Assembly (NCBI GenBank): GCA_021732025.1 | Contig: JAKFVU010000076.1 | Span: forward strand, 1-64,000 | Source: Candidatus Obscuribacterales bacterium | GTDB lineage: Bacteria > Cyanobacteriota > Vampirovibrionia > Obscuribacterales > Obscuribacteraceae | DNA: 64,000 nucleotides | Direction of reading: 5' to 3' | In this document: piece after piece, positions 1 through 15,517 of the stretch | Layout of the letters: every line of letters starts with the position of its first letter | Position numbering within the stretch: the first letter of the stretch is position 1 | The notes under the pieces: model-generated | Database searches by the model: none | What the model saw: only the letters and a program-made list of their open reading frames with translations | Told to the model about the DNA's origin: nothing | Translations under genes and position numbers: made by a program

Positions 1-1582
1 CGTCAAGCTTGCCATTCTGGCCAGGGCTACACATGATGTTAGAGGGCTTGAGATCGCGATGCACAATACCTTCACCATGCGCATGCAACAATGCGTCGCA
101 TACTTGCAGCATTACTGCTGCTGTCTCTTGTACGGTCAGACCTTTGTTCTTCTCAATCAAATCATTGAGAGAAAAACCTTTCACATATTCCATCGCCAAA
201 AATGCTTCACCACTGGCGGTGAATCCAAAATCTCTCACCGCTACAATGTTAGGATGATTGAGAGTTCCAAGCGCTTTTGCTTCTTGCTGAAAGCGCTTTA
301 CGTCATGAATATTGCTCGACACCGCAGCGTGCAAAACCTTTACGGCTAGCTCTTGTTGCAGATACAAATGCTTTGCCAAATAAACGCTTGCCATGCCACC
401 ATCGCCAAGCTCCCACATCACTTCGTACTTATCAGCAAAGATTTGGCCAACTAGCGACTTATTGATCAAGCGAGTCAGTACAGAATCGCAATAAGGGCAG
501 ACTTCCTCTTCTTGGGCAATTTCCTCTTCGCAGGCAAGGCAAACTTTTCTCACACTGCTAGGCGCACGTTCTATGCGATCTTGAATAATGCCCGAACCGA
601 GATTGATAGAAAACTCTGGATTGGCAGCAAATGAGCCCGTTTGAGTAAAGAGAGCTGATGGAGTCACACCCGCGGCCGTCGCGATCAATTGCTCAGCCGA
701 TTTCACTCCGCTAACCACCAAGGCTACCGTTAACGCCACAGCACCAAGAGCAAAGATAGCCCATCCTAAAGCGTTGTCTACAATCTTATAGTGCACTAAC
801 GCGAAACGCGCAGCAAACAGTACCGGCAAGAATACAACCAACAGTGTAGCTCGCCTTGCCACCAGTGCAGAAGCGGTATTCGAACATAAGAATCCCGCGA
901 GGCCCTGATCGCATTTTAGTAAAAAACAAGCGCTACTCATCACTATAAATAGAAACGATATTCCCTCTGACATACGCAAACAGCCGAAGAAAGTACAAAG
1001 CGACTCGGCACCACTGACGGCGCCAATTAGAGGCAGCGAAGTTATCATCAAGGCGGCGACGCAGAGCCATTGTGCTAGCTCAGTGCGTTTTTTCGAAAAC
1101 CAAGTTTGAATTGCCACGGCCGAGGTTAGAGCCATGAATGCAAACGACACATCTGGCGTCATCGGGCCCGGAAACGACAAGCCGGATGAATCTTCATTGG
1201 CGCGATACAGAATGTGGTTCAGACTCAAATCTAAGCCACCAAGAGTTTCAATGGAAGTGGCTAGACCTGCTAAAAACACAATCAAACAAAGAACACTAGC
1301 AAAAATCTGCATAGCAAAGCTAATTGGTTTTGAAATTGATGGCTCTTGAGCTACCAACAAAACACATATGGCTATACCGAGAAAGACTGTGTTGAGACCA
1401 ACGCTTGACCAAACAACTGGTCCATTTAAAAACATGTGCTTGCATGCGCTAACATCAGCGACCCAACCGTAGGTAACTGTTGCACCAAGAACAAGACTGG
1501 CAACGGCTAGAAACAGTGCCGCAATGGTGGCATAACCAACTAGGCGCTCGTTGAGGTAGTCATTGGGCAGAACAATTGACAT
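1..1582 (-). CDS. Membrane-anchored Ser/Thr protein kinase, C-terminus cut by window edge
   Basis: Partial gene; 527 residues are visible and the frame is open to the left edge. The N-terminal 280 residues hold about eight hydrophobic helices (roughly 15-37, 50-75, 85-108, 132-155, 160-182, 190-212, 228-252, 256-280). A CxxC-x10-CxxC zinc ribbon (VCLAC...CPYC) follows near residue 340. A Hanks-type kinase domain starts near residue 368 with a glycine loop (LGDGGMASVYLA), a Lys in LAVKVL, and the catalytic loop HRDLKPSN near residue 507. The order, membrane block then zinc ribbon then kinase, puts the sensor at the N-terminus, opposite to PknB-type kinases. ATG at 1582 directly abuts the TAA of the upstream thioredoxin-like gene (0 bp gap), so the two are likely co-transcribed and translationally coupled. 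The ligand and substrates cannot be told. Confidence 0.9.
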   Translation of the reverse strand, partial: MSIVLPNDYLNERLVGYATIAALFLAVASLVLGATVTYGWVADVSACKHMFLNGPVVWSSVGLNTVFLGIAICVLLVAQEPSISKPISFAMQIFASVLCLIVFLAGLATSIETLGGLDLSLNHILYRANEDSSGLSFPGPMTPDVSFAFMALTSAVAIQTWFSKKRTELAQWLCVAALMITSLPLIGAVSGAESLCTFFGCLRMSEGISFLFIVMSSACFLLKCDQGLAGFLCSNTASALVARRATLLVVFLPVLFAARFALVHYKIVDNALGWAIFALGAVALTVALVVSGVKSAEQLIATAAGVTPSALFTQTGSFAANPEFSINLGSGIIQDRIERAPSSVRKVCLACEEEIAQEEEVCPYCDSVLTRLINKSLVGQIFADKYEVMWELGDGGMASVYLAKHLYLQQELAVKVLHAAVSSNIHDVKRFQQEAKALGTLNHPNIVAVRDFGFTASGEAFLAMEYVKGFSLNDLIEKNKGLTVQETAAVMLQVCDALLHAHGEGIVHRDLKPSNIMCSPGQNGKLD

Positions 1583-2116
1583 TTATTGAGGTGCAAGAGC
1601 CTTGCTGATAGCGTCTGTATAGATCTCTTTCTTCTTTGGCCCAACTAGCTCTTTGAGTAATTTACCCTTGGCAGAAAAGACACCAATGACTGGTGCATAA
1701 TCGGCATTCTCATTGAGAAACTTAGATACACCAATAGTTTTAGCGGTAGTCTTACTGCTGGCCATTTGGTCATTAGAGGTATCAAGTTCAACGAACTGCA
1801 CACGCGACTTATATTCGTTTTGTAGCTCAGAAAGAATCGGTTTAACTTGGCCGCACCAAACTGCGCATTCATGGTCGTATATCATCACGACACGGGCATC
1901 ATACTTTCCAGTAACCGCCTTTGTCAGCCCAGCAGGATTCTCAGCTGAGGCCAAATTCGCCCCGAGAAACAAATCGGTTGCTGCGATAGTCAAAAGCGCT
2001 AGAGTCAATTTTGGCAGTGCTATACCCACCCGTCTCACCACCTGAGCAAAGCTGACGTTGAAAGAATCTGAAGTTGCCATCGAATGCCCCTTGATTGCGC
2101 CAAGTGATTGAACCAT
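1583..2116 (-). CDS. Thioredoxin-fold membrane-tethered protein with a non-standard active site
   Basis: 177 residues. A hydrophobic stretch near residues 27-57 is a signal anchor or signal peptide, followed by a thioredoxin-like domain (beta strand VVMIYDHEC, then a helix, then VQFVELDTSND). The active site reads CAVWCGQVKP: the first Cys of WCxxC is kept, but the resolving Cys is Val, and an extra Cys lies four residues upstream. It therefore cannot be a normal CxxC dithiol oxidoreductase; a CxxxC pair is possible. An alternative start is Met13. It is immediately upstream of the membrane kinase, which suggests an extracytoplasmic redox or binding partner (inference). Confidence 0.75.
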   Translation of the reverse strand: MVQSLGAIKGHSMATSDSFNVSFAQVVRRVGIALPKLTLALLTIAATDLFLGANLASAENPAGLTKAVTGKYDARVVMIYDHECAVWCGQVKPILSELQNEYKSRVQFVELDTSNDQMASSKTTAKTIGVSKFLNENADYAPVIGVFSAKGKLLKELVGPKKKEIYTDAISKALAPQ

Positions 2117-2233
2117 GCCACATTGTACCTACAAGGATTGGCTGAGATCATTACTCGTACTGAAACAGATTTATTCCCTAGTCAACTATAAAACACACCT
2201 ATTTAGTCACCTCTGACCGATAAGCAATGGCCG

Positions 2234-2938
2234 CTACTCAATGCCGCCAACGGCCTGTGGAACTTGCTCATCCGACATTAGCATGTAGCCTCTATTGCGC
2301 ACGGTTTTGATCAAGGTGCCTTCGGCGATGCCCAGACTGCGGCGCAAAAGTTTAAAGTGGGCCCGCACTGTATCGGTAGAAACCATGGCGTCATCGAGCC
2401 AGACTCTCTCTAGTATGGCTTCGGCCGAAAATACCTGATTTTGATGACGCATCAAGAATTCCAGCAAGCTGTATACCTTTGGCCGCAGCTTCAGTTCTTT
2501 GCCGTCACGAGTGACTATGCATGTGGCAGGGTCTAGGGTAATGTCGCTGACGGTCAGGATAGTGCTGGCAAGAGAGCTGGGGCGACGCAGAAGTGCTCTC
2601 ACTCTAGCTTGCAGTTCACGATGTTCAAAGGGTTTGGTAAGGTAATCGTCAGCACCGGCGTCTAGGCCTTGCTCTTTGTCTTCTAGGCGAGTTTTGGCCG
2701 TCAACATTAAAACTGGTATCTTGCCCCCAGCCTTACGATAAGCCAGAAGTACATCGATTCCAGTCAAATCTGGCATCATCCAGTCAAGTATGACTAAGTC
2801 GTACTTATTGACCCGCAGATTCAACAGAGCATCATCACCGTTCGAGGCGATCTGAACCATGTGCCCTTGGCTCTCAAGGCCAAATTTGGTCACTTCAGCT
2901 AGTGTCGAATCATCTTCTACTAATAAGATTTTGGCCAT
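2234..2938 (-). CDS. OmpR/PhoB-family response regulator
   Basis: 234 residues. The receiver domain (1-120) has the acidic pair D9/D10, phosphoacceptor D52 in LVILDWMMPD, T80 in VLMLTA and K102 in YLTKPFEH, so it should be phosphorylatable. A winged-helix DNA-binding domain (about 125-225) includes LRPKVYSLLEFL and TVRAHFKLLRRSLG. Closest in type to PhoB/RpaA/RpaB. No histidine kinase is in the same operon; the nearest is the LOV kinase on the other side of the divergent epimerase. The upstream divergent region holds a 7-4-7 direct repeat of the kind bound by this family, which would fit autoregulation (inference). Confidence 0.93.
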   Translation of the reverse strand: MAKILLVEDDSTLAEVTKFGLESQGHMVQIASNGDDALLNLRVNKYDLVILDWMMPDLTGIDVLLAYRKAGGKIPVLMLTAKTRLEDKEQGLDAGADDYLTKPFEHRELQARVRALLRRPSSLASTILTVSDITLDPATCIVTRDGKELKLRPKVYSLLEFLMRHQNQVFSAEAILERVWLDDAMVSTDTVRAHFKLLRRSLGIAEGTLIKTVRNRGYMLMSDEQVPQAVGGIE

Positions 2939-2973
2939 ATTGGTTCAGATAATAGCAGTAAACTACCAGTGGT

Positions 2974-2991
2974 CGTTCACTACATATTCAC
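2974..2991 (+). promoter_or_regulatory. 7-4-7 direct repeat, candidate response-regulator operator (site 1)
   Basis: CGTTCAC-TACA-TATTCAC: two heptamers ending TTCAC, 11 bp apart, in the divergent region between the response regulator and the epimerase. TAGTTT at 3002-3007, ten bases further on, is a possible -10. The geometry matches sites used by the PhoB/OmpR family. Similar repeats occur at 6198, 8776 and 10786. Confidence 0.5.
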
Positions 2992-3041
2992 AGGCCAAGC
3001 GTAGTTTAAAGATGTGAGTGTGCCTTCAAGCGAGAGATATC

Positions 3042-3929
3042 ATGAAAATTGCGATAGCTGGTGCCAGCGGAATGGTAGGCAAAGCCCTAACCAGAAGTTT
3101 AACAGCGAAGGGCCATTCGGTCACAGCCTTGAAGCGAGGCAATGGAGCCGGGCAGATTTTCGTAGACGTCACCCCAGAGTCACTGCAAAATTATGACGCA
3201 GTTATCAATTTAGCTGGTGAGAATATCGCTGGCAAACGTTGGACAGACGAGCAAAAGAAGTTAATTGTCGATAGCCGCGTCTCGACCACATCATTTTTAG
3301 CCAATGCACTCGCCAAAACTAGCGGGAGCCCTAAGGTGTTCATCAATGCTTCGGCTATCGGAATTTACGGCAACCGCGGCAGCGAAAAAATTACAGAAGA
3401 AAGTTCACCCGGAACTGGATTTCTTGCCAGCACATGCAAGCAATGGGAAGAGGCCGCAAAGCCCGCCAAAAGGGACGGCCTGCGAGTTGTCATCGCCCGG
3501 CTTGGTGTCGTTCTCAGCAAAGAAGGCGGAGCACTTAACAAGATGCTGCTGCCTTTCCAACTTGGAGCAGGTGGAATTCTTGGGAGTGGTCGTCAATACA
3601 TGAGTTGGATTGATATGGACGACCTGGTCAAGGCCTTCGAGTTTCTTCTGGAGAACAATGTTGAAGGTGAAGTCAATATGACATCGCCAAATCCGGCCAC
3701 AAATGCAGAATTCACCAACACCATGGGCAAAGTGCTGAGCCGTCCTGCCATTCTTCCAGCACCAGCCTTTGCCTTAAATTTGATTTTGGGAGAAATGGCC
3801 CAAGAAATGCTGCTCGAAGGCAGTTTGGTCTTACCGACAAAGCTTGAAAAGGCAGGGTTCAAGTTCGATTATGCCAATCTTGAACAGGCTCTCAATCATG
3901 AAATCAAGTCGCCAGCTGGCGTCGCTTAA
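3042..3929 (+). CDS. TIGR01777-family NAD(P)-dependent epimerase-like protein
   Basis: 295 residues of the extended SDR superfamily (YfcH/SulA type). The N-terminus KIAIAGASGMVGKAL is the Rossmann dinucleotide motif. Family features include the NLAGENIAGKRWT segment near residue 60 and a C-terminal DUF1731-like part (residues about 240-290). The start is ATG at 3042, because the protein begins directly with the Rossmann strand; an earlier in-frame ATG at 3018 would add eight unlikely residues. The substrate is not known for the family. The LOV histidine kinase follows after 18 bp, so the two form an operon. Confidence 0.88.
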   Translation: MKIAIAGASGMVGKALTRSLTAKGHSVTALKRGNGAGQIFVDVTPESLQNYDAVINLAGENIAGKRWTDEQKKLIVDSRVSTTSFLANALAKTSGSPKVFINASAIGIYGNRGSEKITEESSPGTGFLASTCKQWEEAAKPAKRDGLRVVIARLGVVLSKEGGALNKMLLPFQLGAGGILGSGRQYMSWIDMDDLVKAFEFLLENNVEGEVNMTSPNPATNAEFTNTMGKVLSRPAILPAPAFALNLILGEMAQEMLLEGSLVLPTKLEKAGFKFDYANLEQALNHEIKSPAGVA

Positions 3930-3947
3930 AAAGAAGAAGGAATCAAC

Positions 3948-5057
3948 TTGGACAGCAATTGCGCAGGCAAGAACGAGCAACTATTACTTTTCAAACGTGC
4001 TGTCGAATCTGTCCGCAACGGGATCTGCATTACCAATCCTCGCTTGCCAGACAACCCAATAGTCTATGTTAATGACGCCTTTTTAGAGATGACCACTTAT
4101 CAGCGGCATCAGGTGGTCGGTCGCAATTGTCGTTTTCTTCAACGCGACGATCGTGACCAAGCTTCTATCGAAAAGATTAGAGAAGCGATTCGCGCAGAGC
4201 AACCAATCACAACGATATTGCGCAATTACCGCCGCGACGGTTCGATATTTTGGAATGAGTTGACCGTGTCGCCGGTGCATGACGAATCTGGCACTCTTAT
4301 CAATTTTGTGGGAATTCAAAATGATATTTCTGCCCGCAAAGAAGCAGAGAAAAGAGTGTCTGAATTTTACTCAGTTATTTCTCATGAACTACGCACTCCT
4401 CTGACCTCTATCAACGGTGCTCTTAGCGTTATTGCTGATGGCTCAGCCGGCAAAGTAAACCCTCAAGTGATGCGGATGGTGAGCATTGCTCTCGAGAATT
4501 CTGAGCGTTTAATTCGATTGATTTCAGACATTCTCGATTGGAAGAAAATTGAATCAGGCAAATTCCGATTGAATACTACTAGCATCAGCCCTGAGCATTT
4601 AATCGATAGTGTGGTTGAAGCAGTCAAGCCACTTTCGCTCTCTGCCAAAGTAAAACTAAAAAAGGAAGTTTCTACCGCTGCTGAACTTTCTGTCGATGTC
4701 GACAGAACACTACAAGTGCTCACCAATCTGGTTGATAACGCTATCAAATTCTCGCCAGCTGAGAGCACCGTTACTCTTAGAGCAGAGCTTAGAGGCCATG
4801 ACACTGTGCGCTTTTCGGTGACAGATCAAGGTGCGGGTATTGCCCCTGATCAGCTGGATAAACTGTTCAAAGTTTTTCAGCAGTTAGACTCATCTGACAA
4901 GAGAAGGGCAGGAGGAACCGGACTCGGTCTATCCATCAGCCGCTCGCTGGTAGAGCTTCATGGCGGTCAGATTGGAGTGGATAGCGTGCTCGGGGAGGGC
5001 AGTACATTCTGGTTCGAGTTTTATACAGCAAATTCCAAATTACCAAGTAGACCATAG
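3948..5057 (+). CDS. LOV-domain sensor histidine kinase (blue-light receptor type)
   Basis: 369 residues, soluble. Residues 17-125 form a PAS domain with the LOV signature GRNCRFLQ, including the flavin-adduct Cys61, followed by the LOV-type NYRRDGSIFWNEL and the strand FVGIQNDI. The HisKA domain has ISHELRTPL with His146. The HATPase_c domain has N-box LVDNAIKFSP, D293-containing DQGAGI and GGTGLGL at 322-328. All kinase motifs are intact. TTG start with AAGAAGG seven bases upstream. LOV domains with this Cys bind FMN and form a light-driven adduct, so blue-light sensing is a strong prediction. A sigma factor gene follows and an OmpR-type regulator lies divergently nearby; either could be the output. 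Confidence 0.93.
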   Translation: MDSNCAGKNEQLLLFKRAVESVRNGICITNPRLPDNPIVYVNDAFLEMTTYQRHQVVGRNCRFLQRDDRDQASIEKIREAIRAEQPITTILRNYRRDGSIFWNELTVSPVHDESGTLINFVGIQNDISARKEAEKRVSEFYSVISHELRTPLTSINGALSVIADGSAGKVNPQVMRMVSIALENSERLIRLISDILDWKKIESGKFRLNTTSISPEHLIDSVVEAVKPLSLSAKVKLKKEVSTAAELSVDVDRTLQVLTNLVDNAIKFSPAESTVTLRAELRGHDTVRFSVTDQGAGIAPDQLDKLFKVFQQLDSSDKRRAGGTGLGLSISRSLVELHGGQIGVDSVLGEGSTFWFEFYTANSKLPSRP

Positions 5058-5144
5058 GTGGCAGTGCTAAAAAGAATGCAATTGAAAAAGTAATCCGTAT
5101 CGCTCCCTCAAATCTCTAGATGTTGGCACATTCGAGAACTTCAA

Positions 5145-6167
5145 ATGGTGAGCAAGATGAACGAATTAGAGAAATACATAGTTGATTTTCCACCGAGTTT
5201 ATTTGACGGCGGCAGTTTAGATTTGCTCGACAAAACAATGTCGCCGCTCAATGATGACTCGATTGAACAAATTTACGAAATCGGAGAGGTTGAAGAGGAC
5301 AAAGAATCGAAATCAACCGACAAAGAAACCCAATCTGCCAGTGGTGAAGCTGCTCTCTACGCCTATTTGCATAATATAGGAAAGACTAGCTTGATCAAAG
5401 CAAATGAAGAAATAGAACTGGGTCGAGCTATTGCGGCCGGCGACGACGCCGCCTTATCTAAGCTTGTTGTGAGTAACCTTAGGCTAGTTGTTAGCATAGC
5501 AAAACGCTTTCGCAATCAGGGTTTAGATATGGAAGACATGATTCAAGAGGGCAACCTAGGCTTGATTCATGCTGCTAAAAAATTCGACCCAACAATGGGC
5601 AATAGATTCTCAACCTATGCCACCTGGTGGATTCGCCAATCGGTGATGCGAGCAATCGCAAATAAAGGTAGAAGCATCAGAATTCCGGTACACGTAAGAA
5701 GCCAGATATCGCGCATCAAGCGCTACGCCAAAGAATTTCGCCAAGGTCATGGCCGCTTTCCAACAGAAGCTGAGCTGGCTGTAGCTTTAGAGTTGCCGCC
5801 AGAAGAGATAACGAGGTTAGTGGCCAGCTCTGGCAGCATCGCCTCACTAGATGAAACACTGCCTGGTTCAGAGAAAGATACGATAGGAAGTTTTATAGAA
5901 GACCAGTTTTCGGCATTACCTGAGCGTATGGCTGAACAGACCATGCTCCGGCGGGGCATTGACCGACTCACCCGCTATCTAAGCCCTCTTGAGAAAACGG
6001 CAATTAGCTTTCTCTATGGCCTAGAGGGTGACGGCCTGTATGACTCCAAAATGGTCGCAGCCAAGCTCAATATCGATGTCGCAGAGCTACGCCGCATACA
6101 AAAGCGGTCGCTGAAGAAGCTTCGTCGTCACTTGCACAATAAATCGCTTAGCGACTTCATTTCATAG
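5145..6167 (+). CDS. RNA polymerase sigma-70 family factor, group 2 type
   Basis: 340 residues. After an acidic N-terminus (1-60) come region 1.2 (LYAYLHNIGKTSLI), region 2 (LVVSNLRLVVSIAKRF, DMIQEGNLGLIHAAKKFD, FSTYATWWIRQSVMRAI), region 3 (IPVHVRSQISRIKRYAKEF, FPTEAELA) and region 4 (LSPLEKTAISFLYGL to KLRRHL). Lacking the long region 1.1 of a primary sigma factor, it resembles cyanobacterial group 2 factors. Region 4.1 departs from the usual LTPREREV. ATG at 5145 is the first start; ATG at 5157 is also possible. It lies 87 bp after the LOV kinase on the same strand. Confidence 0.92.
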   Translation: MVSKMNELEKYIVDFPPSLFDGGSLDLLDKTMSPLNDDSIEQIYEIGEVEEDKESKSTDKETQSASGEAALYAYLHNIGKTSLIKANEEIELGRAIAAGDDAALSKLVVSNLRLVVSIAKRFRNQGLDMEDMIQEGNLGLIHAAKKFDPTMGNRFSTYATWWIRQSVMRAIANKGRSIRIPVHVRSQISRIKRYAKEFRQGHGRFPTEAELAVALELPPEEITRLVASSGSIASLDETLPGSEKDTIGSFIEDQFSALPERMAEQTMLRRGIDRLTRYLSPLEKTAISFLYGLEGDGLYDSKMVAAKLNIDVAELRRIQKRSLKKLRRHLHNKSLSDFIS

Positions 6168-6197
6168 ATTTTATCTTCTAGATTGGGCTATAGGCCA

Positions 6198-6215
6198 CGT
6201 TCACCGGCCGTTCAC
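6198..6215 (+). promoter_or_regulatory. 7-4-7 direct repeat (site 2) upstream of small ORFs
   Basis: CGTTCAC-CGGC-CGTTCAC, a perfect repeat of the heptamer with an 11-bp period. TAAGCT at 6226-6231, ten bases on, is a possible -10, the same spacing as site 1. It follows the sigma factor stop at 6167 and would drive the small ORFs at 6269 and 6368. Confidence 0.5.
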
Positions 6216-6268
6216 TTTTGCCTATTAAGCTGTAGATGCCAATATCTAGGTCGAATTCAAGAGGAGAA

Positions 6269-6325
6269 ATGCCGATTTTCAGCTCTGTAAAGATATGTTT
6301 ACTGTATGCTCTGTATCAGCTCTAG
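6269..6325 (+). CDS. Possible 18-codon leader peptide
   Basis: ATG to TAG encoding MPIFSSVKICLLYALYQL. AGGAG lies only 2 bp upstream of the ATG (GAGG at 4 bp), a short but usable ribosome site. The end of the ORF lies inside an 8-bp hairpin, and the downstream small ORF has its own AAGGAG. This looks more like a leader than a functional protein. No homologue is recognised. Confidence 0.35.
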   Translation: MPIFSSVKICLLYALYQL

Positions 6326-6331
6326 AGCATA
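6305..6331 (+). promoter_or_regulatory. Leader hairpin with an alternative pairing
   Basis: TATGCTCT (6305-6312) pairs with AGAGCATA (6324-6331) across an 11-base loop. The sequence GCTCTAGAGC (6319-6328) is itself a palindrome and would compete for the same bases. It spans the stop codon of the 18-codon ORF and has no U-run after it, so it is not a simple terminator. Confidence 0.4.
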
Positions 6332-6367
6332 GATAATAGGCCATCCCTAAGGAGTGCTCGTTTCTAT

Positions 6368-6472
6368 ATGACTCTAGCCAGTTTGGCCATTGTAGTCCTC
6401 GGAACAATAGTTTTTACGCTTATCAACGATTATCTGCCCGTTGGCGGAGATTACATCGAAGATAACCCTTAG
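6368..6472 (+). CDS. 34-residue single-helix membrane peptide
   Basis: Hydrophobic helix at residues 2-20 (LASLAIVVLGTIVFTLI) followed by an acidic tail ending YIEDNP. AAGGAG at 6349-6354 is 13 bases before the ATG. No in-frame start lies between the ribosome site and the ATG. The topology resembles small inner-membrane regulatory peptides, but no family is recognised. Upstream are a leader hairpin and 7-4-7 repeat site 2. Confidence 0.5.
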   Translation: MTLASLAIVVLGTIVFTLINDYLPVGGDYIEDNP

Positions 6473-6548
6473 CTTCAGCTTTTTTTGACTAGCATAACAA
6501 AAAGAAGTGACACCAAATGTGATGCCACGTTGATTTGTTATTCAATTT

Positions 6549-6590
6549 GCAAATTTGCGCTTGACAGAGTGGTGCTTATAACACTATGCT
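6549..6590 (+). promoter_or_regulatory. Promoter with adjoining palindrome
   Basis: TTGACA (6561-6566), 18-bp spacer, TATGCT (6585-6590). The perfect palindrome GCAAATTTGC (6549-6558) ends two bases before the -35, a usual place for a regulator site. A hairpin, TAGAGAA-GCTAA-TTCTCTA (6601-6619), lies in the predicted 5' leader. Confidence 0.55.
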
Positions 6591-6668
6591 GTTTTTATGC
6601 TAGAGAAGCTAATTCTCTACTAGATAGAACGCTATATACAACGCGAAGTACCAGAAGAGAGGTGCCCC

Positions 6669-6848
6669 ATGGGACCATTCTATAAAACCAATACCGCCGC
6701 CAGCACTATTTGTGCGGCCCGCCGGATTGGCAATTTCGCAGGCGAGAATCTAGTGGTCGAGAAATTAGTGAATGGCAAAAGTCTCAATCTCTCGAAATCT
6801 GCAGGTATGCATCAGGGCCGAAAGCCGGATAGCACACGGAGCAACTAG
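6669..6848 (+). CDS. Small basic protein of 59 residues, unknown
   Basis: ATG preceded by AGAGAGG with a 6-base gap, behind a TTGACA/TATGCT promoter and a leader hairpin. The product is hydrophilic and basic, with two segments AARRIGNFAG and VVEKLVNGKSLNLSK and the tail RKPDSTRSN. No signal peptide or membrane helix. No homology is recognised. The strong promoter and ribosome site make it a likely real gene. Confidence 0.5.
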   Translation: MGPFYKTNTAASTICAARRIGNFAGENLVVEKLVNGKSLNLSKSAGMHQGRKPDSTRSN

Positions 6849-7126
6849 CCTTCACAAGCTAGAGAGAACAACATAAAAAGGGCTGATAAGGGTCGTTTCT
6901 GACTAGTCTGACAAGCTAGTTTAGATGCCAAAACACTCTGAAACAAACTTTTCCAATGACGCCTTGAATGGCGCAGTTTGCCGCTTGAAGCAATATTGAG
7001 CACGTCAGTGTTCAGTATGGCAAAGAGGTGCACAGAATATTTCACTTCACCGTATTTGGTGCAGATAGATTTCTGCGCCCAATAACTTCACCCCAAAAAT
7101 CTGAAACACAAAAGGAGAAATCAGTA
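6849..7126 (+). other. Intergenic region before the 92-residue ORF
   Basis: 278 bases with no convincing gene. Two open frames of about 24 codons (MPKHSETNF..., MAKRCTEYF...) lack ribosome sites. No terminator or perfect long inverted repeat is seen. Confidence 0.4.
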
Positions 7127-7405
7127 ATGAGGTTCATCATCGAAACCATAAACTCACAGCGTCACGCTAGGCGATTCATTGTCGAATATATCTTCGTCAA
7201 TGCCTACCGCCAATATGGCAATTGCCGCAGAACAGAGCGTCAGTCAAAGACCTTGCAACTTGCTGGCCATCGCCTTGGCGTACTTTCAAGTGCAAGTGCA
7301 AGTGAAATTGAAGTTGAAATTGAAGCTGCAGGTGAGATTGATGGCGCCGATGTGCAGACCTTTCAACCGAAGCAAAATCACCTTATAATCCAGATAACAA
7401 AATAA
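7127..7405 (+). CDS. Hypothetical 92-residue protein upstream of rtcB
   Basis: ATG at 7127 has AAAGGAG at 7111-7117 ten bases upstream, far better than the GTG/ATG choices further upstream in the same frame. The N-terminal half is basic (residues 1-50; RHARRF, YRQYGNCRRTERQ). The C-terminal half is acidic with an imperfect repeat (SASASEIEVEIEAAGEIDGAD), coded by a degenerate 6-base-period DNA repeat. It ends 23 bp before rtcB, so the two are probably co-transcribed. Not an archease. Function unknown. Confidence 0.6.
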   Translation: MRFIIETINSQRHARRFIVEYIFVNAYRQYGNCRRTERQSKTLQLAGHRLGVLSSASASEIEVEIEAAGEIDGADVQTFQPKQNHLIIQITK

Positions 7406-7428
7406 AAAAATACAGCAAAGAGAAGAAA

Positions 7429-8688
7429 ATGAATATCGAAAAAATCCACTATGATCCAAACGATTTGCCCTATGAAGTAATTAGGATTCACGAAAAGAAA
7501 CCAATTAAGGCATGGGTCAAAGGTGTTGCTCTAGAGGCTGCGGCCCTGCAACAATTGATTAACCTGGCATCAATGCCATTTATCCACAAACACATCGCCG
7601 TAATGCCTGATGCCCACATGGGTAAAGGCACCACCGTCGGTACCGTCATTCCCACCTTCAAAGCGATCATTCCTGCTGCTGTTGGGGTTGACTTAGGCTG
7701 CGGCATGATTGCCATGGCCACTACACTAAAAGCCAACGACTTGCCTGACAATCTTCGCTCATTGAGAACTGCAATCGAAAATGCAGTTCCTGTTGGTAAA
7801 GGTTTCTGGCGTGATGACTTGGCTGGCAGCCATCCTGCGGCCAAGCCTATCAACCAGGCTTGGTCAACATTGAGCGATAGATGGGATGTAATTGCAGCAA
7901 AACACCCTAAGGTAGATGACGGCAACTACAGCCGCAATCGTCTGCAGCTAGGTACTCTTGGTTCAGGTAATCACTTCATCGAGATTCTTCTTGATGGAGG
8001 CGACAATGTCTGGCTGATGTTGCACTCTGGCAGCAGAGGTGTAGGTAACCGTATCGGTACTTACTTCATCGAACTGGCACGCAAAGAGATGACAAGAAAT
8101 CAGATCAATCTGCCAGATAAAGACCTAGCCTATCTCTCAGAAGGAGCCGATTATTTTGACGATTATCTCTATGCTGTTCAATGGGCACAAGACTATGCCT
8201 ACCTGAACAGACAAGTGATGATGGGACAAGTAATTGAGGCACTCAAGCGCACAGGTGAGCTGCCTGAGTTTGAGGCTCAGCTCCAAGTAATCAACTGTCA
8301 CCACAACTATGTCACTCAAGAAAGCCACTTCGGTGAGACTGTCTGGGTAACAAGAAAGGGTGCAGTTAGAGCACAAGAAGGAGATTGGGGTATCATCCCA
8401 GGTTCTATGGGTGTAGGTTCATACATCGTTCGTGGAAAAGGAAACCGCGAGAGCTTCAACAGTTGCTCTCACGGAGCTGGTCGCACCATGTCTCGTAGCC
8501 AAGCGAAGAAAGTGATATCACTCGATCGTCACGCTGCTGACACGGCTCATGTTGAGTGCCGCAAAGACGAAGGCATTCTCGATGAATCACCTGGTGCGTA
8601 CAAGCCACTTGATGCGGTCATGGCAGCTCAGGCTGACCTTGTTGAAATTGTTCACAAGCTAAGACCACTTGTCTGCGTCAAAGGATGA
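7429..8688 (+). CDS. rtcB: RtcB-type RNA-splicing ligase
   Basis: 419 residues. RtcB joins 2',3'-cyclic phosphate or 3'-phosphate RNA ends to 5'-OH ends with GTP and Mn2+. Visible motifs: MPDAHMGKGTTVGTV, GVDLGCGM (metal Cys), LGTLGSGNHFIE, MLHSGSRGVGNR, NCHHNYV, GSMGVGSYIVRGKGN and SCSHGAGR, which carries the guanylylated His. All are intact, so it should be active. The length matches the shorter bacterial RtcB subgroup. It follows the 92-residue ORF by 23 bp. No RtcA or RtcR is nearby. A role in RNA repair or tRNA healing is likely. Confidence 0.95.
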   Translation: MNIEKIHYDPNDLPYEVIRIHEKKPIKAWVKGVALEAAALQQLINLASMPFIHKHIAVMPDAHMGKGTTVGTVIPTFKAIIPAAVGVDLGCGMIAMATTLKANDLPDNLRSLRTAIENAVPVGKGFWRDDLAGSHPAAKPINQAWSTLSDRWDVIAAKHPKVDDGNYSRNRLQLGTLGSGNHFIEILLDGGDNVWLMLHSGSRGVGNRIGTYFIELARKEMTRNQINLPDKDLAYLSEGADYFDDYLYAVQWAQDYAYLNRQVMMGQVIEALKRTGELPEFEAQLQVINCHHNYVTQESHFGETVWVTRKGAVRAQEGDWGIIPGSMGVGSYIVRGKGNRESFNSCSHGAGRTMSRSQAKKVISLDRHAADTAHVECRKDEGILDESPGAYKPLDAVMAAQADLVEIVHKLRPLVCVKG

Positions 8689-8775
8689 TTCACAATCAGG
8701 AGAGGGTCCAGAGGCTGAAGCAAAGCAGAATTAATTCGCAATTTTGTCTTTTTCTTCAGCCTCTGCCCGTGTTCT

Positions 8776-8793
8776 TACTCACGAAATATTCAC
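8776..8793 (+). promoter_or_regulatory. 7-4-7 direct repeat (site 3) upstream of kinase
   Basis: TACTCAC-GAAA-TATTCAC, heptamers 11 bp apart. TATTCT at 8805-8810 is a possible -10, 11 bases after the repeat. It sits in the 148-bp gap between rtcB and the kinase start at 8837. Confidence 0.45.
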
Positions 8794-8836
8794 ATACTCT
8801 CTTTTATTCTCTTAGAATAGTCCCGAAGAGAAAAAC

Positions 8837-10759
8837 TTGGTTACTAGTATTACCAGCGACAAAATCATTGACCAACGCTACCAGATTGTCACCACAATCG
8901 GGCAGGGTGGCATGGGCAAAGTGTACCTGGTTGTTGATCTCGAGAAAAACAGACAAGTTGCTCTTAAGACTTTAGAGAGAGATCTTAACGACCAAGCCGC
9001 CTGGGGAAGGTTCGAACGAGAAGCGAGAAACGCATCTCGACTGAACCACCCTAATATTGCTCGCATCTATGACTTCGGTAAGCTTAATGGCGAAGTGCCA
9101 TATTTGGTTATGGAGCTGATTACTGGTCAAACCCTGCACGAAAGAATTAGAAGCAGGGGCCCGCTGAGCGAAGAAGAAGTGCTGACTGTATTTCTCGCCA
9201 TGGCTTCAGCGCTGCAGCATGCCCACCTAATGGATACACTGCACCGCGACATTAAACCGGCCAATATAGTGGTAATCACAGATAGAGTCGGCAAAATTAT
9301 TGATGCCAAACTAATCGATTTTGGTTTAGCCAAGTGTTTCGCCGAAGACGAATTTGCCCAGTCACTGACGGCCACTGGCGAGTTAATCGGTAGCCCTTTT
9401 TATATGAGCCCAGAACATTGGAATAGCCAGGCCTTGGGACCAGGCTCAGATATCTACTCACTTGGAATTACTTTGTTCGAAGCCTTGACTGGGAAGGTTC
9501 CGTTCTCTGGTGAAAACCCATTTGCCACTGCAGTTTCTCACAACACTGCCCCACTACCCCGTTTAGCTGACTTCACCGATGCGCTAATAGATGACAGTGA
9601 TTGGCAAATTGTCTTAGACAAAATGCTCGCTAAATCAATTGATGATCGCTACAGAAGTGCTGCACAGTTTGCCCATGACCTCTATTGCATTGCTAACGGC
9701 GAAGATGTAAACCCGCAGATTGAAGAACTTTTCGACGACGAGCCAGCTAAATCAACAAAGCTCAACAACTTGCTTCTTCTTATCGGCGCCTGTGCGGTAT
9801 TTTTACTGCTCACCTGCGTAGTCTCGATGATATTTTTCGCAACTGCCAAAGCCCCAAAAAACACCCCAATTAAGCCTGCCTTCGAACGCTTGCCTAGTCA
9901 CAGTGAAAACGTCAACGAGAAAATGCCCAACTTTAGCGTCTATAGAGACAGCCAGCGTCACATCTTCGAATTTTCTGACACAACCAAAATTGGTTTCGTT
10001 TCAGTTGAAAAACCAAGCTTCGACCAACCGGCCACTGGCACCATTGAAGTTAAGCACGGTGACCGCTTCATGTTTCGCCCTAGTGATCTCTTTTTGATGC
10101 ATCCTGAAATGTTCAGGAGGTTCGGCCCATACGACCTCAATGCTTTATTTCTTCAGGGTGTACCAGCTGTGGTCAACGATCAGGTTCTCTCTAATATTAG
10201 GCATTTGACGGGGTTGCGCCACTTGATTGTGCGCAACTCGACGATTACTGCAAATGCCGTGGATACCTTTAATTGCTTTCCTCAACTAGACAACCTCACC
10301 CTTGTCGATACAGAGGTAACAGGCGCTAGCCTAGCGAATCTAAAACGCTTGAAAGAGCTAGATTCTCTCACCGCTAATGATGCTGTAAATCCCACTCCTT
10401 ATTTGGTGAAACTGGTAGGCTCAACCAGCCTTCGCCAACTTTCAGTAAAGAGCGTCGATCTCAGCGATGACGACCTCAAACTTATAGCCCAAATACCAAA
10501 TCTAAAAGAGCTGACTATCAATAGCAACCCCAAAGTAACTACAAAAGGCCTTTCCTATCTACTTAAATGCAAGAAACTCAAGAAGCTACAGATTAAACAC
10601 ATGGGGCCACTGCCAGGGGCCGCGGCAATTTTGGGGCAGCTCAAGAGTCTAAAAACACTGATGGTTGACTCCGCCGTTGTTTCAACAACAGAGCTGGCGC
10701 CACTGCAACAAGCACTTCCTGAATGTAATATCGATTTTGGTGATTCAGAAAGAGAGTAA
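8837..10759 (+). CDS. Ser/Thr protein kinase with membrane helix and C-terminal leucine-rich region
   Basis: 640 residues. The kinase domain (about 14-287) has glycine loop IGQGGMGKVYLV, VALKTL, HRDIKPANIVV, DFGLAK and GSPFYMSPEHW, all intact. A single membrane helix lies at about 309-337. The C-terminal part (about 450-635) has leucine-rich repeat-like periods (LRHLIVRNS, LDNLTLVDT, LRQLSVKS, LKELTINSN, LKKLQIKHM), placing a predicted ligand-binding surface outside the membrane. TTG start with AAGAG upstream. Downstream is the lysozyme-like gene with its own 7-4-7 repeat. The signal and targets are unknown. Confidence 0.92.
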   Translation: MVTSITSDKIIDQRYQIVTTIGQGGMGKVYLVVDLEKNRQVALKTLERDLNDQAAWGRFEREARNASRLNHPNIARIYDFGKLNGEVPYLVMELITGQTLHERIRSRGPLSEEEVLTVFLAMASALQHAHLMDTLHRDIKPANIVVITDRVGKIIDAKLIDFGLAKCFAEDEFAQSLTATGELIGSPFYMSPEHWNSQALGPGSDIYSLGITLFEALTGKVPFSGENPFATAVSHNTAPLPRLADFTDALIDDSDWQIVLDKMLAKSIDDRYRSAAQFAHDLYCIANGEDVNPQIEELFDDEPAKSTKLNNLLLLIGACAVFLLLTCVVSMIFFATAKAPKNTPIKPAFERLPSHSENVNEKMPNFSVYRDSQRHIFEFSDTTKIGFVSVEKPSFDQPATGTIEVKHGDRFMFRPSDLFLMHPEMFRRFGPYDLNALFLQGVPAVVNDQVLSNIRHLTGLRHLIVRNSTITANAVDTFNCFPQLDNLTLVDTEVTGASLANLKRLKELDSLTANDAVNPTPYLVKLVGSTSLRQLSVKSVDLSDDDLKLIAQIPNLKELTINSNPKVTTKGLSYLLKCKKLKKLQIKHMGPLPGAAAILGQLKSLKTLMVDSAVVSTTELAPLQQALPECNIDFGDSERE

Positions 10760-10785
10760 GCAAATTAGCTTAGAGCGGCTTAATA

Positions 10786-10803
10786 CTGTCACGTAATTTT
10801 CAC
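10786..10803 (+). promoter_or_regulatory. 7-4-7 direct repeat (site 4) upstream of lysozyme-like gene
   Basis: CTGTCAC-GTAA-TTTTCAC, heptamers 11 bp apart. The first half matches the E. coli PHO-box half-site CTGTCAY. AATAAT at 10816-10821 is a possible -10, 12 bases on. TTCACAGGCCA is shared exactly with site 1. Confidence 0.5.
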
Positions 10804-10871
10804 AGGCCATCGAACAATAATAAGTCTCCCCTTTCACCCGCATGAAAGTTACACCCCGGGAGACACTTACT

Positions 10872-11849
10872 ATGAGCCTTGAAACCTCCGATTCAACACC
10901 CAAGCACAAAGCCAGTGACCGCGCCGCCCTAGAGGGCAGCGACAACACTAAAAGTGCTATTCACGACCAGGTCAACGGCCTGCCAGCTAAAGACCAGCTG
11001 CCAGCCAAGCAAGATGTTGTCTCAGACAATGCTGCCATAGCAAAAATGGGCTTTCCTTCGCCATTGCTGCAAGATTCAGGGTTCGGCCAGCTCAAAGGCT
11101 CGCTCTATATGAATAATAGCGACCGCAAATTGCTTGAAGGTCCAAAGAAAGAGCTAGAAGCTCATTTGGGCGATACCCTTAGCGATCGCGTAGTGAAGAC
11201 AGTGGCTAGCAACGAAGGCAAATTCAACACCATTAACCTCAATGACGCCGGCCATGGCATTTCAGTTGGTGTCAGACAGTGGAATCAAAAGGCTGGCGAG
11301 TTGCCAGACTTACTGAAAAGCTTCCATGATAAAAACCCAGAGAAATTCGACAAAATTTTCGGTAAGTATGCCGACAATCTCTTGAGCGAAAAATATGTCA
11401 GACGCACCAATATGGCTGGCAATAAAGACATGATGGGAAGAATGAAAGAAGCTCTCAACGACCCTGAGTTTCAAGAAGTTCAAGTTGATAAATTCAAAAA
11501 GTTCGCTGAGAAAACTGGCGAAATGGCCAAGAAATATGGCCTTAAGTCTGAACTAGGAGCAGCTCTGGTTGCCGATATCGCCAATCAAATGGGCGAAGGT
11601 GGTGCCCGCCGTATCATGCGCCGCGCTGGGCTTAAACCAGGTGGTGAAGTAGAGGACGAAGCAGCTATTTTGAAGAAAATGGAAAAGCTCACTCGCCGCC
11701 CTAACTCTAAGGCACGCTTCGAAATGCTATCGAGTAGCTTCAGCCCAGACAAAATTGATCCTAAGAAAAATCTACCCGGCAGACGGCAAGAGAACAATCC
11801 CTCTACCTATGTAGCCGATCTTGATTTGACAGCAAACAACGTGGCTTAG
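10872..11849 (+). CDS. Lysozyme-like fold protein, putative peptidoglycan-active
   Basis: 325 residues. An N-terminal low-complexity region (1-60) is rich in Asp, Lys and Ser. A domain at about 75-260 holds VASNEGKFNTINLNDAGHG followed by ISVGVRQWNQKAGELPDLL. This Glu-Gly/Asp/GxxQW pattern resembles lysozyme- or chitosanase-like domains found in bacterial peptidoglycan-binding and effector proteins, with the Glu as candidate catalytic acid (family recognition by eye, moderate). No signal peptide is visible. Start: ATG at 10872 has CGGGAG eight bases upstream; ATG at 10842 would put that site inside the ORF. Convergent with ppk. Alternative: a structural or secreted protein with no enzyme activity. 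Confidence 0.6.
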   Translation: MSLETSDSTPKHKASDRAALEGSDNTKSAIHDQVNGLPAKDQLPAKQDVVSDNAAIAKMGFPSPLLQDSGFGQLKGSLYMNNSDRKLLEGPKKELEAHLGDTLSDRVVKTVASNEGKFNTINLNDAGHGISVGVRQWNQKAGELPDLLKSFHDKNPEKFDKIFGKYADNLLSEKYVRRTNMAGNKDMMGRMKEALNDPEFQEVQVDKFKKFAEKTGEMAKKYGLKSELGAALVADIANQMGEGGARRIMRRAGLKPGGEVEDEAAILKKMEKLTRRPNSKARFEMLSSSFSPDKIDPKKNLPGRRQENNPSTYVADLDLTANNVA

Positions 11850-11877
11850 CGTTGGCTTAGGGCCTAGTATTTAGAGC

Positions 11878-14202
11878 TTAGCGCTTATTAGTTTGATTGT
11901 TAGTCAAGAACCACTGCTGACAGCTTAGACCCTGTTCGCCAGTTCTTGGGTGCAATCTCAAATAACGGCCATCACTCTGCATCACTCGCGACTTATTGGT
12001 ATCAAACAAATAGGTCTTGAGCACAGCGTCACGTACAAACCTAGCCAATCTTTCGTCTTCTATAGGGAAGAGCACTTCAACACGGCGATTGAGGTTGCGA
12101 GGCATCAAGTCAGCACTACCGCAGAATATTTCGTCTTTGCCACCATTGCGGAAATAATAAATGCGACTGTGCTCAAGGAAGCGACCAACCACACTAATTA
12201 CTTGGATGTTCTCGCTCACGCCAGGTATACCGGGCCGCAAACAACATATTCCTCTAACGATAAGATCAACTTTTACACCGGCTTGAGAAGCGCGGTAAAG
12301 AAGCTCAATTAAACGCTCATCAACAAGCGCATTCATTTTTAGAATAATGCGCCCCTTGGCACCACTTTTTGCGTGCTCGATTTCGCGCAAAATCAATTCT
12401 TCGAAACGCTCACGCATATTGATTGGCGCCACCAATAATTTGCGGTAGTCGCGCTTAGCGGAATAGCCAGTGAGATAGTTAAATAAGTCAGAAATATCAG
12501 TTCCGATTTTCTCATCGCAAGTAAGCAAGCCGATATCGGTATAAAGGTGAGCTGTCATCGGATTATAATTTCCGGTGCCAAGGTGAACATAACGGCGAAT
12601 ACTATCGCCTTCTTTACGCACAACCAGGGCCAACTTAGAGTGAATTTTCAGCCCAAGCAAACCATAGACAACGTGCACGCCTTCGGCTTCAAGAGCCTTG
12701 GCCCATTCAATATTGCTTTCTTCATCAAAGCGAGCTTTCAACTCAACCAGCACGGCCACTTGCTTGCCACGCTCTTGCGCTTTGAGTAATGCTTCAACTA
12801 CAGGTGAGTTCTTGCCGACTCGGTAAAGAGTCATTTTGATAGCCAACACATTAGGGTCGCTGGCAGCAGCATTGAGGAAGTTTATAACCGGTTGAAACGA
12901 ATCATAAGGATGATGGAAAAGGATGTTGCGCCTAGCAATCGCGGCGAACATATCTTCGTCTTTATCCATTGTGTCTGGATCAAGCACCGCTGGAATAGCG
13001 GGGATGAATGGTGGATATTTGAGATCGTGACGATCTAAATTAGCTACATACTTGAGTGAGCTGAGAGGCATGCGCCCTTCAATCAAATAAACATCGTAAG
13101 GTTCAATCTGAAGATTACTCATCAAAATTTCAAGAATATAGGCAGGCATCGCGTGGTGCACTTGTAGCCTGACCACATCACCGAAGCGCCTTTGTCTTAC
13201 ACCTTCTTCAGTAGTTTCTAGAAGGTCACCGGCTTCCCATTCTTGAATTTCCATCTCGGCATCACGAGTGACGTGAAAAGGATAAACTTCAACAATCGAC
13301 ATGCCAGGGAATAGTTGTTCAATGTTTGCCTTACACAAATCATCGAGCCAAATATAGGTATTAGGTTTGCACTGAATGACACTAGAGCGCGCACCGGGCG
13401 GCTCTGTTTTACCAATCGGAACCAACTGCGGCAAACTATCAGGTATTTTGACACGAGCAAAACGCTCATCAGAAACCGGATCTCGTATCAGAACAGCTAA
13501 GTTGAGACTAAGGTTGGAAATATGGGGGAAGGGATGGCCTGGGTCAAAGGCTAGGGGTGTGAGAACCGGAAAAATCTTCTTGCGGAAATACTCGCGAGCA
13601 TCGACTTTCTGCTCTTCAGTTAACTCATCAAATTGCAAAATTTGAATGCCAGACGATTTTAGTTCTGGCAGCAAACTACCTTTCAAACAGTCATGGGCAC
13701 TAGCAAGTAAACGAGTTACTTCAGAACTAACGGCATCTAACTGCTCAGAAGGATTAAGACCATCAGGGCCAGCACTAGGAGTGCCTGACTCAATTTGGCG
13801 CTTAAGACCAGCTACTCGCACCATGAAAAACTCTTCTAGATTAGAGCCTAGAATTGACAAAAAGCGGAAGCGCTCAAGTAGCGGATTGGTAACATCCATA
13901 GCCTCTTCAAGCACACGCCATTGGAAAGCTAGCAGACTCAATTCGCGATTGAGATAATAGGCTGGGTCAGTCAAAAGCGGTCGCAAATCTTCAGGAGCAT
14001 CAACCGGCGGCTGCTCTTGGGTAACATTTACCAGCATGTTATCGGGAGGAAGCACGTGGCGAACGGCTTCGGGCGCGCCTATGACAGCCGCCACAGGTGT
14101 CGCTGGTATATCTTTTGCCCCGGCAGCGACAATCGCCTCAAGTGCTTCAGAACGTTTGATTTCAGTCGTTTTTCGACTATTGGCCGTGTCAGGTGATTGC
14201 AT
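11878..14202 (-). CDS. ppk1: Polyphosphate kinase 1
   Basis: 774 residues; typical PPK1 is about 690, the extra being a variable N-terminal extension (1-80). It catalyses reversible transfer of ATP gamma-phosphate to polyphosphate. Visible: the N-terminal domain YLNRELSLLAFQWRVLEEA; the catalytic phospholipase-D-like halves with KMTLYRVGKNSPVVEAL, LVELKARFDEESNI, the phospho-His motif KIHSKLAL, RRYVHLGTGNYNP, and the C-terminal RGICCLRPGIPG and LEHSRIYYF with SADLMPRNL. All catalytic motifs are intact. No strong ribosome site is seen before the ATG. The 170-bp upstream region has two inverted repeats and a PHO-box-like repeat. Polyphosphate storage fits the proposed lineage. Confidence 0.97.
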   Translation of the reverse strand: MQSPDTANSRKTTEIKRSEALEAIVAAGAKDIPATPVAAVIGAPEAVRHVLPPDNMLVNVTQEQPPVDAPEDLRPLLTDPAYYLNRELSLLAFQWRVLEEAMDVTNPLLERFRFLSILGSNLEEFFMVRVAGLKRQIESGTPSAGPDGLNPSEQLDAVSSEVTRLLASAHDCLKGSLLPELKSSGIQILQFDELTEEQKVDAREYFRKKIFPVLTPLAFDPGHPFPHISNLSLNLAVLIRDPVSDERFARVKIPDSLPQLVPIGKTEPPGARSSVIQCKPNTYIWLDDLCKANIEQLFPGMSIVEVYPFHVTRDAEMEIQEWEAGDLLETTEEGVRQRRFGDVVRLQVHHAMPAYILEILMSNLQIEPYDVYLIEGRMPLSSLKYVANLDRHDLKYPPFIPAIPAVLDPDTMDKDEDMFAAIARRNILFHHPYDSFQPVINFLNAAASDPNVLAIKMTLYRVGKNSPVVEALLKAQERGKQVAVLVELKARFDEESNIEWAKALEAEGVHVVYGLLGLKIHSKLALVVRKEGDSIRRYVHLGTGNYNPMTAHLYTDIGLLTCDEKIGTDISDLFNYLTGYSAKRDYRKLLVAPINMRERFEELILREIEHAKSGAKGRIILKMNALVDERLIELLYRASQAGVKVDLIVRGICCLRPGIPGVSENIQVISVVGRFLEHSRIYYFRNGGKDEIFCGSADLMPRNLNRRVEVLFPIEDERLARFVRDAVLKTYLFDTNKSRVMQSDGRYLRLHPRTGEQGLSCQQWFLTNNQTNKR

Positions 14203-14254
14203 ACATTAAATTGTAAGGCATTCGGCCTCTTGGCGACAAGGCTGTCACGCACCT

Positions 14255-14272
14255 GTAAGCAAATAGTGACAA
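14255..14272 (-). promoter_or_regulatory. PHO-box-like 7-4-7 repeat upstream of ppk1 (weak)
   Basis: On the minus strand: TTGTCAC-TATT-TGCTTAC, with the same 7-4-7 geometry as the four plus-strand sites and in the direction of ppk1, about 53 bp upstream of its ATG. The second half is degenerate and no good -10 follows. Confidence 0.3.
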
Positions 14273-14280
14273 AGATCTCA

Positions 14281-14346
14281 GCGAATTTGGGTCAAATTCG
14301 CAGCATTTTGTTATGTGCTTAACCTTTGCCCTTCAAATAACAAAAT
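14281..14346. promoter_or_regulatory. Two perfect inverted repeats in the ppk1 upstream region
   Basis: GCGAATTTG-GGT-CAAATTCGC (14281-14301) has 9-bp arms and a 3-base loop. ATTTTGTTAT (14305-14314) and ATAACAAAAT (14337-14346) form 10-bp arms 22 bases apart. CTTAACCT (14318-14325), an exact cyanobacterial PHO-box half-site, lies inside the second loop. No T-run follows the first hairpin on the minus strand, so it is more like an operator than a terminator. Confidence 0.5.
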
Positions 14347-14372
14347 AGTTAGCACGCAGACTAGTGAAGAGA

Positions 14373-15497: not shown

Positions 15498-15517
15498 TTC
15501 TTGATTCCTCTCACTGA

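Follow-up and report, generated by a model that had tools for sequence, protein, structure and literature searches.

Two classes of tandem direct-repeat promoter elements in a Candidatus Obscuribacterales genome, one linked to a LOV histidine kinase and its OmpR-family neighbour

A 64,000-nucleotide stretch of DNA from a Candidatus Obscuribacterales bacterium (assembly GCA_021732025.1, contig JAKFVU010000076.1, positions 1 to 64,000; hereafter the window) contains four direct repeats with a 7-4-7 geometry, which an initial annotation, made from the sequence alone, had read as the sites of a single regulon. We find that they are genuine operator-like promoter elements with predicted regulator binding, and that there are two classes of them, with sites 1 and 2 in class A and sites 3 and 4 in class B. 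The class A sites are likely to be the operators of a blue-light two-component system, consisting of a LOV-domain histidine kinase (3948–5057) and an OmpR/PhoB-family response regulator (2234–2938), while class B would have a reader of its own.

Re-reading of the sequence reproduced the letters, coordinates and plus-strand orientation of all four repeats: site 1 at 2974–2991 (CGTTCAC-TACA-TATTCAC), site 2 at 6198–6215 (CGTTCAC-CGGC-CGTTCAC), site 3 at 8776–8793 (TACTCAC-GAAA-TATTCAC) and site 4 at 10786–10803 (CTGTCAC-GTAA-TTTTCAC). Each contains two repeats with an 11-bp period, and all four are intergenic and followed by a plus-strand gene. The background frequency, which the initial annotation had been unable to compute, was obtained for both strands of the window. 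TCAC-N6-TTCAC gave four matches, all of them sites 1–4, compared with a chance expectation of 0.54, and none of 500 Markov shuffles with the same dinucleotide frequencies contained four or more. The 7-4-7 geometry was 7–8-fold above expectation, and alternative spacings gave 0–2 matches each. Conservation upstream of orthologues had been suggested as a test, and sites 1–3 were kept in at least four relatives (site 2 in G001, G002, G003, G005 and G030; site 3 in G001, G002, G003 and G005) and site 4 in three (G001, G002 and G005). Because the sites are conserved in orthologues, chance similarity can be excluded as their origin.

Genome-wide background in the 4.6-Mb genome (84% complete) was estimated by comparing pattern counts with those of reversed-pattern controls. 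TTCAC-N6-TTCAC occurred 21 times, against 12 for the control, and no excess was seen when one mismatch was allowed (307 against 326). Since one-mismatch matches lie at background, loose matrices are useless for this motif. The sites differ in their flanks, with a G preceding the first TTCAC in sites 1 and 2, and TCACG and WW in sites 3 and 4. Inspection of exact matches led to a sharpened pattern, TCACG-N3-WWTTCAC, for class B; sites 1 and 2 fit GTTCAC-N5-RTTCAC, the class A pattern. Class A matched twice in the genome (control 0), at sites 1 and 2, and the count was likewise exactly two in G001 and G005, at syntenic places. Class B matched 18 times (control 5), with 14–22 copies in five genomes of the same genus (controls 2–4), and 24 and 15 copies in another genus, g5 (controls 1 and 3). 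The initial annotation had asked whether the motif is as common inside genes as between them. None of the 18 class B sites lay within an open frame of at least 120 aa, all being intergenic, and 17 were followed by a start at a distance of no more than about 220 nt. The proposal of one regulon for sites 1–4 is not supported, as the classes differ in flanks, abundance (2 against 18), kind of target and –10 spacing. Longer arrays were also observed. Four TTCAC units at exact 11-bp spacing, with an additional upstream pair, lie between a TPR protein gene and a TadE-like pilus gene (G000:C52:20650-20746, L061), and at G000:C2:248590-248627 (L067) there are 3–4 units with an 11-bp period, whose orientation opposes that of both neighbouring genes.

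The –10 spacing was examined using TANNNT as the –10 pattern. In 60 class A sites, TANNNT started at +11 in 25 and at +12 in 8, with few at other offsets; in 47 non-redundant class B sites from three genomes it started at +12 in 25, at +11 in 4, and at any other offset in at most 3 (Fisher P 9e-7 for class A against class B, some sites being orthologous and hence not fully independent). As the –10 lies outside the search pattern, its phasing is independent evidence that these are promoter elements. The possible –10 elements noted initially at 10–12 bp are therefore real. In the window they are, all on the plus strand, TAGTTT at 3002–3007 for site 1 (starting 11 nt past TTCAC, the offset of most orthologues and of class A generally), TAAGCT at 6226–6231 for site 2 (+11, an offset at which five relatives also have TAnnnT), TATTCT at 8805–8810 for site 3 (+12, the class B offset), and AATAAT at 10816–10821 for site 4 (+13, conserved in G001 and G005). 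A separate –35 hexamer is absent, and its sigma-70 position would coincide with the spacer in the motif interior. PhoB sites are known to overlap the –35 position (PMC3348028), and M. tuberculosis PhoP binds 7-4-7 direct repeats as a tandem dimer, with tighter binding on longer repeat arrays (PMC4832192). The tandem repeats, phased –10 and intergenic position all fit the OmpR/PhoB layout in which the site replaces the –35, as originally proposed.

The regulator beside site 1 had been recognised as OmpR/PhoB-type, and profile searches agreed: the protein encoded at 2234–2938 on the minus strand contains Response_reg (Pfam, 8e-28) and Trans_reg_C (Pfam, 3e-20) domains, and is the proposed class A binder. 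The first gene past site 1 (3042–3929, plus strand) encodes a TIGR01777 (YfcH/ThyD-like) NAD-dependent oxidoreductase (NCBIfam, 5.5e-102). It is followed by the LOV kinase gene (3948–5057, plus strand), the conserved neighbour of the regulator, whose product is the proposed partner. The kinase contains both HisKA and HATPase_c domains, and an N-terminal LOV domain with an intact adduct cysteine motif, GRNCRFLQ. Its PDB match was a YtvA-LOV/FixL chimera (7.9e-53), with the alignment spanning the NCRFLQ motif. Adjoining the kinase gene is that of a group-2-like sigma-70 factor (5145–6167, plus strand; profile searches, synteny in eight relatives), which is possibly part of the site 1 transcription unit. 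Three LOV-kinase genes were observed in a single relative, G028 (C39, C240 and C258).

The association of site 1 with the regulator extends to other genomes. In nine relatives the regulator is 78–93% identical and site 1 is conserved, and a site 1-type operator lies within 300 bp of the LOV-linked regulator at 14 of 17 loci. In more distant genera the locus is rearranged, with the LOV kinase on one side of the regulator and a flavin amine oxidase or short-chain dehydrogenase facing it on the other; after this rearrangement the class A site still adjoins the regulator, in unchanged relative strand. Regulator homologues without a LOV neighbour (L188–L192) had no class A site within 300 bp upstream. 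LOV-linked regulators have in common the recognition helix SxDTVR[TA]H[IF]KLLR, from which most other paralogues of this genome differ. The genome encodes 27 OmpR-family DNA-binding domains, and adjacency is for this reason uninformative for sites 3 and 4. Among the 27, a promoter-region site of this kind was present for the window regulator alone, a match on C8 falling at a junction between coding regions. The regulator, put forward initially as the reader of all four sites, is thus supported by association for site 1 and by extension for site 2, but not for sites 3 and 4. Sites 3 and 4 belong to a second class of about 18 promoters that share this architecture, and the evidence is suggestive of a different OmpR-family paralogue as their most likely reader.

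To examine the occurrence of class A sites in relatives, a first set of 24 family genomes (14 with and 10 without a LOV kinase) and 12 further genomes kept apart as a held-out set (seven with a LOV kinase) were used. In the first set, class A and control counts were 59 and 4 in LOV-positive genomes, and 6 and 14 in LOV-negative genomes (Fisher 3e-8). In the held-out set they were 38 and 6 in LOV-positive genomes (excess 5e-7), and 9 and 5 in LOV-negative genomes, and all seven held-out LOV-positive genomes had a class A site near the LOV-regulator pair. For both sets combined the counts were 97 and 10, and 15 and 19, respectively (P 6e-8). Enrichment of class A is confined to genomes encoding the LOV kinase.

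In related genera, the genes that directly follow class A sites or diverge from them include photolyase (G017 and G026), SOUL haem-binding proteins (G015, G016, G017, G019 and G030), flavin amine oxidases, DUF2867 and TIGR01777 oxidoreductases, and fatty-acid desaturases. One class A site of G017 precedes a desaturase gene followed by those of an amine oxidase, DUF1365 and cyclopropane synthase (CMAS). In G019 one site precedes a regulator-ferrochelatase run, and another a SOUL-dehydrogenase run leading to the LOV kinase. By gene content, related genera appear to have a photo-oxidative gene set under one operator. CAAX-protease-like membrane proteins and NUDIX hydrolases were also recurrent targets in relatives (L283:775-1980, L310:1532-2749, L288:971-1558, L316:1560-2177 and L319:658-1305). 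Of the light gene set, the genome that contains the window yielded no more than the TIGR01777 oxidoreductase/kinase unit. This set may have been reduced to two promoters here, or its remainder may lie in the unassembled 16%.

We propose that blue light would generate a flavin-cysteine adduct in the LOV domain and alter kinase activity. Following phosphotransfer, a head-to-tail dimer of the phosphorylated regulator would occupy GTTCAC-N5-RTTCAC, overlapping the –35 position with the TANNNT –10 starting 11 nt further on, and would recruit RNA polymerase, presumably acting as an activator rather than a repressor. At site 1 this would provide feedback on the kinase gene and drive the TIGR01777 oxidoreductase gene, perhaps together with that of the sigma factor; its output at site 2 would be a 34-aa membrane protein; and in related genera the same operator would stand ahead of the photo-oxidative-stress gene set.

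Several observations weigh against this proposal. Three of the 17 LOV-linked regulator loci have no class A site within 300 bp, the contrast between LOV-positive and LOV-negative genomes in the held-out set is by itself not significant (P 0.11), and several class A sites in other genomes precede genes with no obvious link to light. In the window's own genome (84% complete) photolyase was not detected and the single SOUL gene lacks a class A site, and for this reason the light reading of sites 1 and 2 rests on the relatives and on the kinase. LOV kinases can be active in the dark, so that light may either raise or lower transcription. Finally, the TTCAC core is shared by the two classes, which makes a single regulator for both conceivable.

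The last point leads to an alternative in which the regulator at 2234–2938 binds sites 1–4, and all of them belong to one regulon of about 20 promoters with class B as a mere sequence variant. The 11-bp period and strand orientation are common to both classes, as is the core, and –10 placement is nearly equal; moreover, the regulator-bearing genera g1 and g5 hold both classes. However, the flanks and –10 spacing are distinct, and the target sets do not overlap in kind. Class A can occur without class B: G016 has 12 class A sites and one class B site, and G017 seven and three. Class B is present in G020 (7 against 1 in the control) and G025 (5 against 0), in which no LOV kinase was found. LOV-negative genomes together gave 54 class B sites against 20, but 30 against 5 of these come from the incomplete assemblies of G004 and G033, which limits the count as evidence that class B is independent of the LOV kinase. 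We regard a single regulon as unlikely, though not to be dismissed. A two-tier light programme is doubtful as well, and we consider it the less probable of these two: the LOV kinase and OmpR-type regulator would run a photo-protective set and, acting through either a paralogous regulator or the sigma factor encoded alongside, also the class B set, whose hydrolase-like proteins may be secreted; light would in that case schedule extracellular activity.

Recognition by an alternative sigma factor, such as that encoded at 5145–6167, in place of an activator would account for the constant –10 distance and for the presence of a sigma gene within the cluster. The 11-bp repeats, the 3–4-unit arrays on C2 and C52 and the response-regulator neighbour fit an OmpR-type tandem dimer instead, and the sigma-70 –35 position would land in the motif spacer; we consider this explanation very improbable. 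Slightly less probable still is a reading of the sites as PHO boxes that serve a phosphate system of the PhoB/PhoP kind, invited by a core that almost matches the S. coelicolor PHO box GTTCACC (PMC4415409), and by a polyphosphate kinase gene (ppk, 11878–14202) beside site 4. The ppk gene and the site 4 target gene lie on opposite strands and converge, and no phosphate-acquisition genes were present among the class A and B downstream genes examined, not every target in the genome having been classified. With a LOV photoreceptor as the partner kinase, class A tracking the LOV kinase across genomes, and no phosphate genes among these targets, the PHO box reading was rejected. As for a chance likeness of four intergenic words, single-mismatch matches do lie at genome background, but the shuffles, the conservation in orthologues, the –10 phased outside the search pattern and the co-occurrence with the LOV kinase leave it a negligible probability. 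The blue-light two-component reading of sites 1 and 2, with sites 3 and 4 as a second class, is the one we retain.

Downstream of site 2, the region diverges among relatives except for a 34-aa frame with a ribosome-binding site (6368–6472, plus strand; AAGGAG upstream). It encodes a microprotein with an apparent single transmembrane segment, MTLASLAIVVLGTIVFTLINDYLPVGGDYIEDNP, which is conserved in five relatives, and which site 2 probably drives. The initial annotation had assigned a small-ORF cluster to site 2; this is chiefly the one conserved protein, which had gone unnamed, its frame being too small for the list of open reading frames. A second conserved small ORF, starting MRF[MI]IE and diverging in its C-terminal half, lies directly upstream of rtcB (7126–7405). 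Between site 2 and rtcB there is also a second, sigma-70-like promoter, with a conserved TTGACA and a TATGCT 18 nt downstream (6561–6590). Rfam searches revealed no RNA in positions 1–16000.

The target of site 3 is a Ser/Thr protein kinase with an LRR-like C-terminus (8837–10759, plus strand; Pfam Pkinase 1.3e-47). The target of site 4 is a GH46 chitosanase/lysozyme-like protein without an obvious signal peptide (10872–11849, plus strand), for which the Pfam GH46 match (3e-4) is below cut-off. The best Foldseek matches of this protein were GH46 chitosanases with probability 1.0, but with an E-value of 0.2 and from a low-confidence model. The resemblance of the lysozyme-like gene named initially to GH46 chitosanases is weak. 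Pfam and NCBIfam searches recognised almost nothing among the class B targets, and PDB sequence searches of three of them gave no match. By our own reading of the sequences, many have hydrophilic N-termini and C-terminal regions resembling peptidases or cell-wall hydrolases. Three class B-type targets (L059:879-2279, L064:5440-6876 and L066:5887-7161) share a module of about 100 aa with no Pfam or PDB match.

The initial observation was sound, and more meaningful than could be known when it was made, although its single-regulon reading should be split. For a branch of the cyanobacterial phylum that does not photosynthesise, an operator, a sensor and a regulator of probable blue-light control can now be named, and a heterologous reporter would allow a direct test of why such organisms sense light. 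Separated from this is another and larger regulon, of hydrolase-like proteins that are so far uncharacterised, which can be traced by its motif. In the literature searched, we found no described photoreceptor circuit from this largely uncultured branch.

The predicted operators resemble those of M. tuberculosis PhoP and E. coli PhoB in their 7-bp direct repeats, 4-bp spacer and tandem dimer (PMC4832192), and in their overlap with the –35 (PMC3348028), but differ in consensus, in having a LOV photoreceptor as the partner kinase, and in their predicted light and photo-oxidative targets. Their half-site core differs little from GTTCACC, the PHO box of S. coelicolor PhoP (PMC4415409), from which they differ in the absence of phosphate genes among the targets examined; the likeness may be convergent or an inherited family preference. 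In Pseudomonas, photolyase, short-chain dehydrogenase, FAD oxidoreductase and furan fatty acid synthase are light-inducible under LitR and LOV control (PMC9758184). These LitR/LOV clusters (PmlR2/PmSB-LOV, PplR) have a similar gene content and a LOV protein in the circuit (PMC9758184), but their output runs through a MerR-type LitR and a short LOV protein, in contrast to the LOV histidine kinase, OmpR-type regulator and direct-repeat operators described here. The kinase itself resembles YtvA-LOV and the engineered YF1 in joining a LOV domain that carries the NCRFLQ motif to a HisKA-HATPase kinase; YF1 was constructed as a chimera and has FixJ as its partner (PMC9614035), whereas the present kinase is natural and lies beside an OmpR-type regulator. 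LOV kinases, OmpR-type operators and light-induced repair sets are each already known; what is new, to our knowledge and within the literature searched, is that one operator brings them together in this lineage, and that the sites form two classes.

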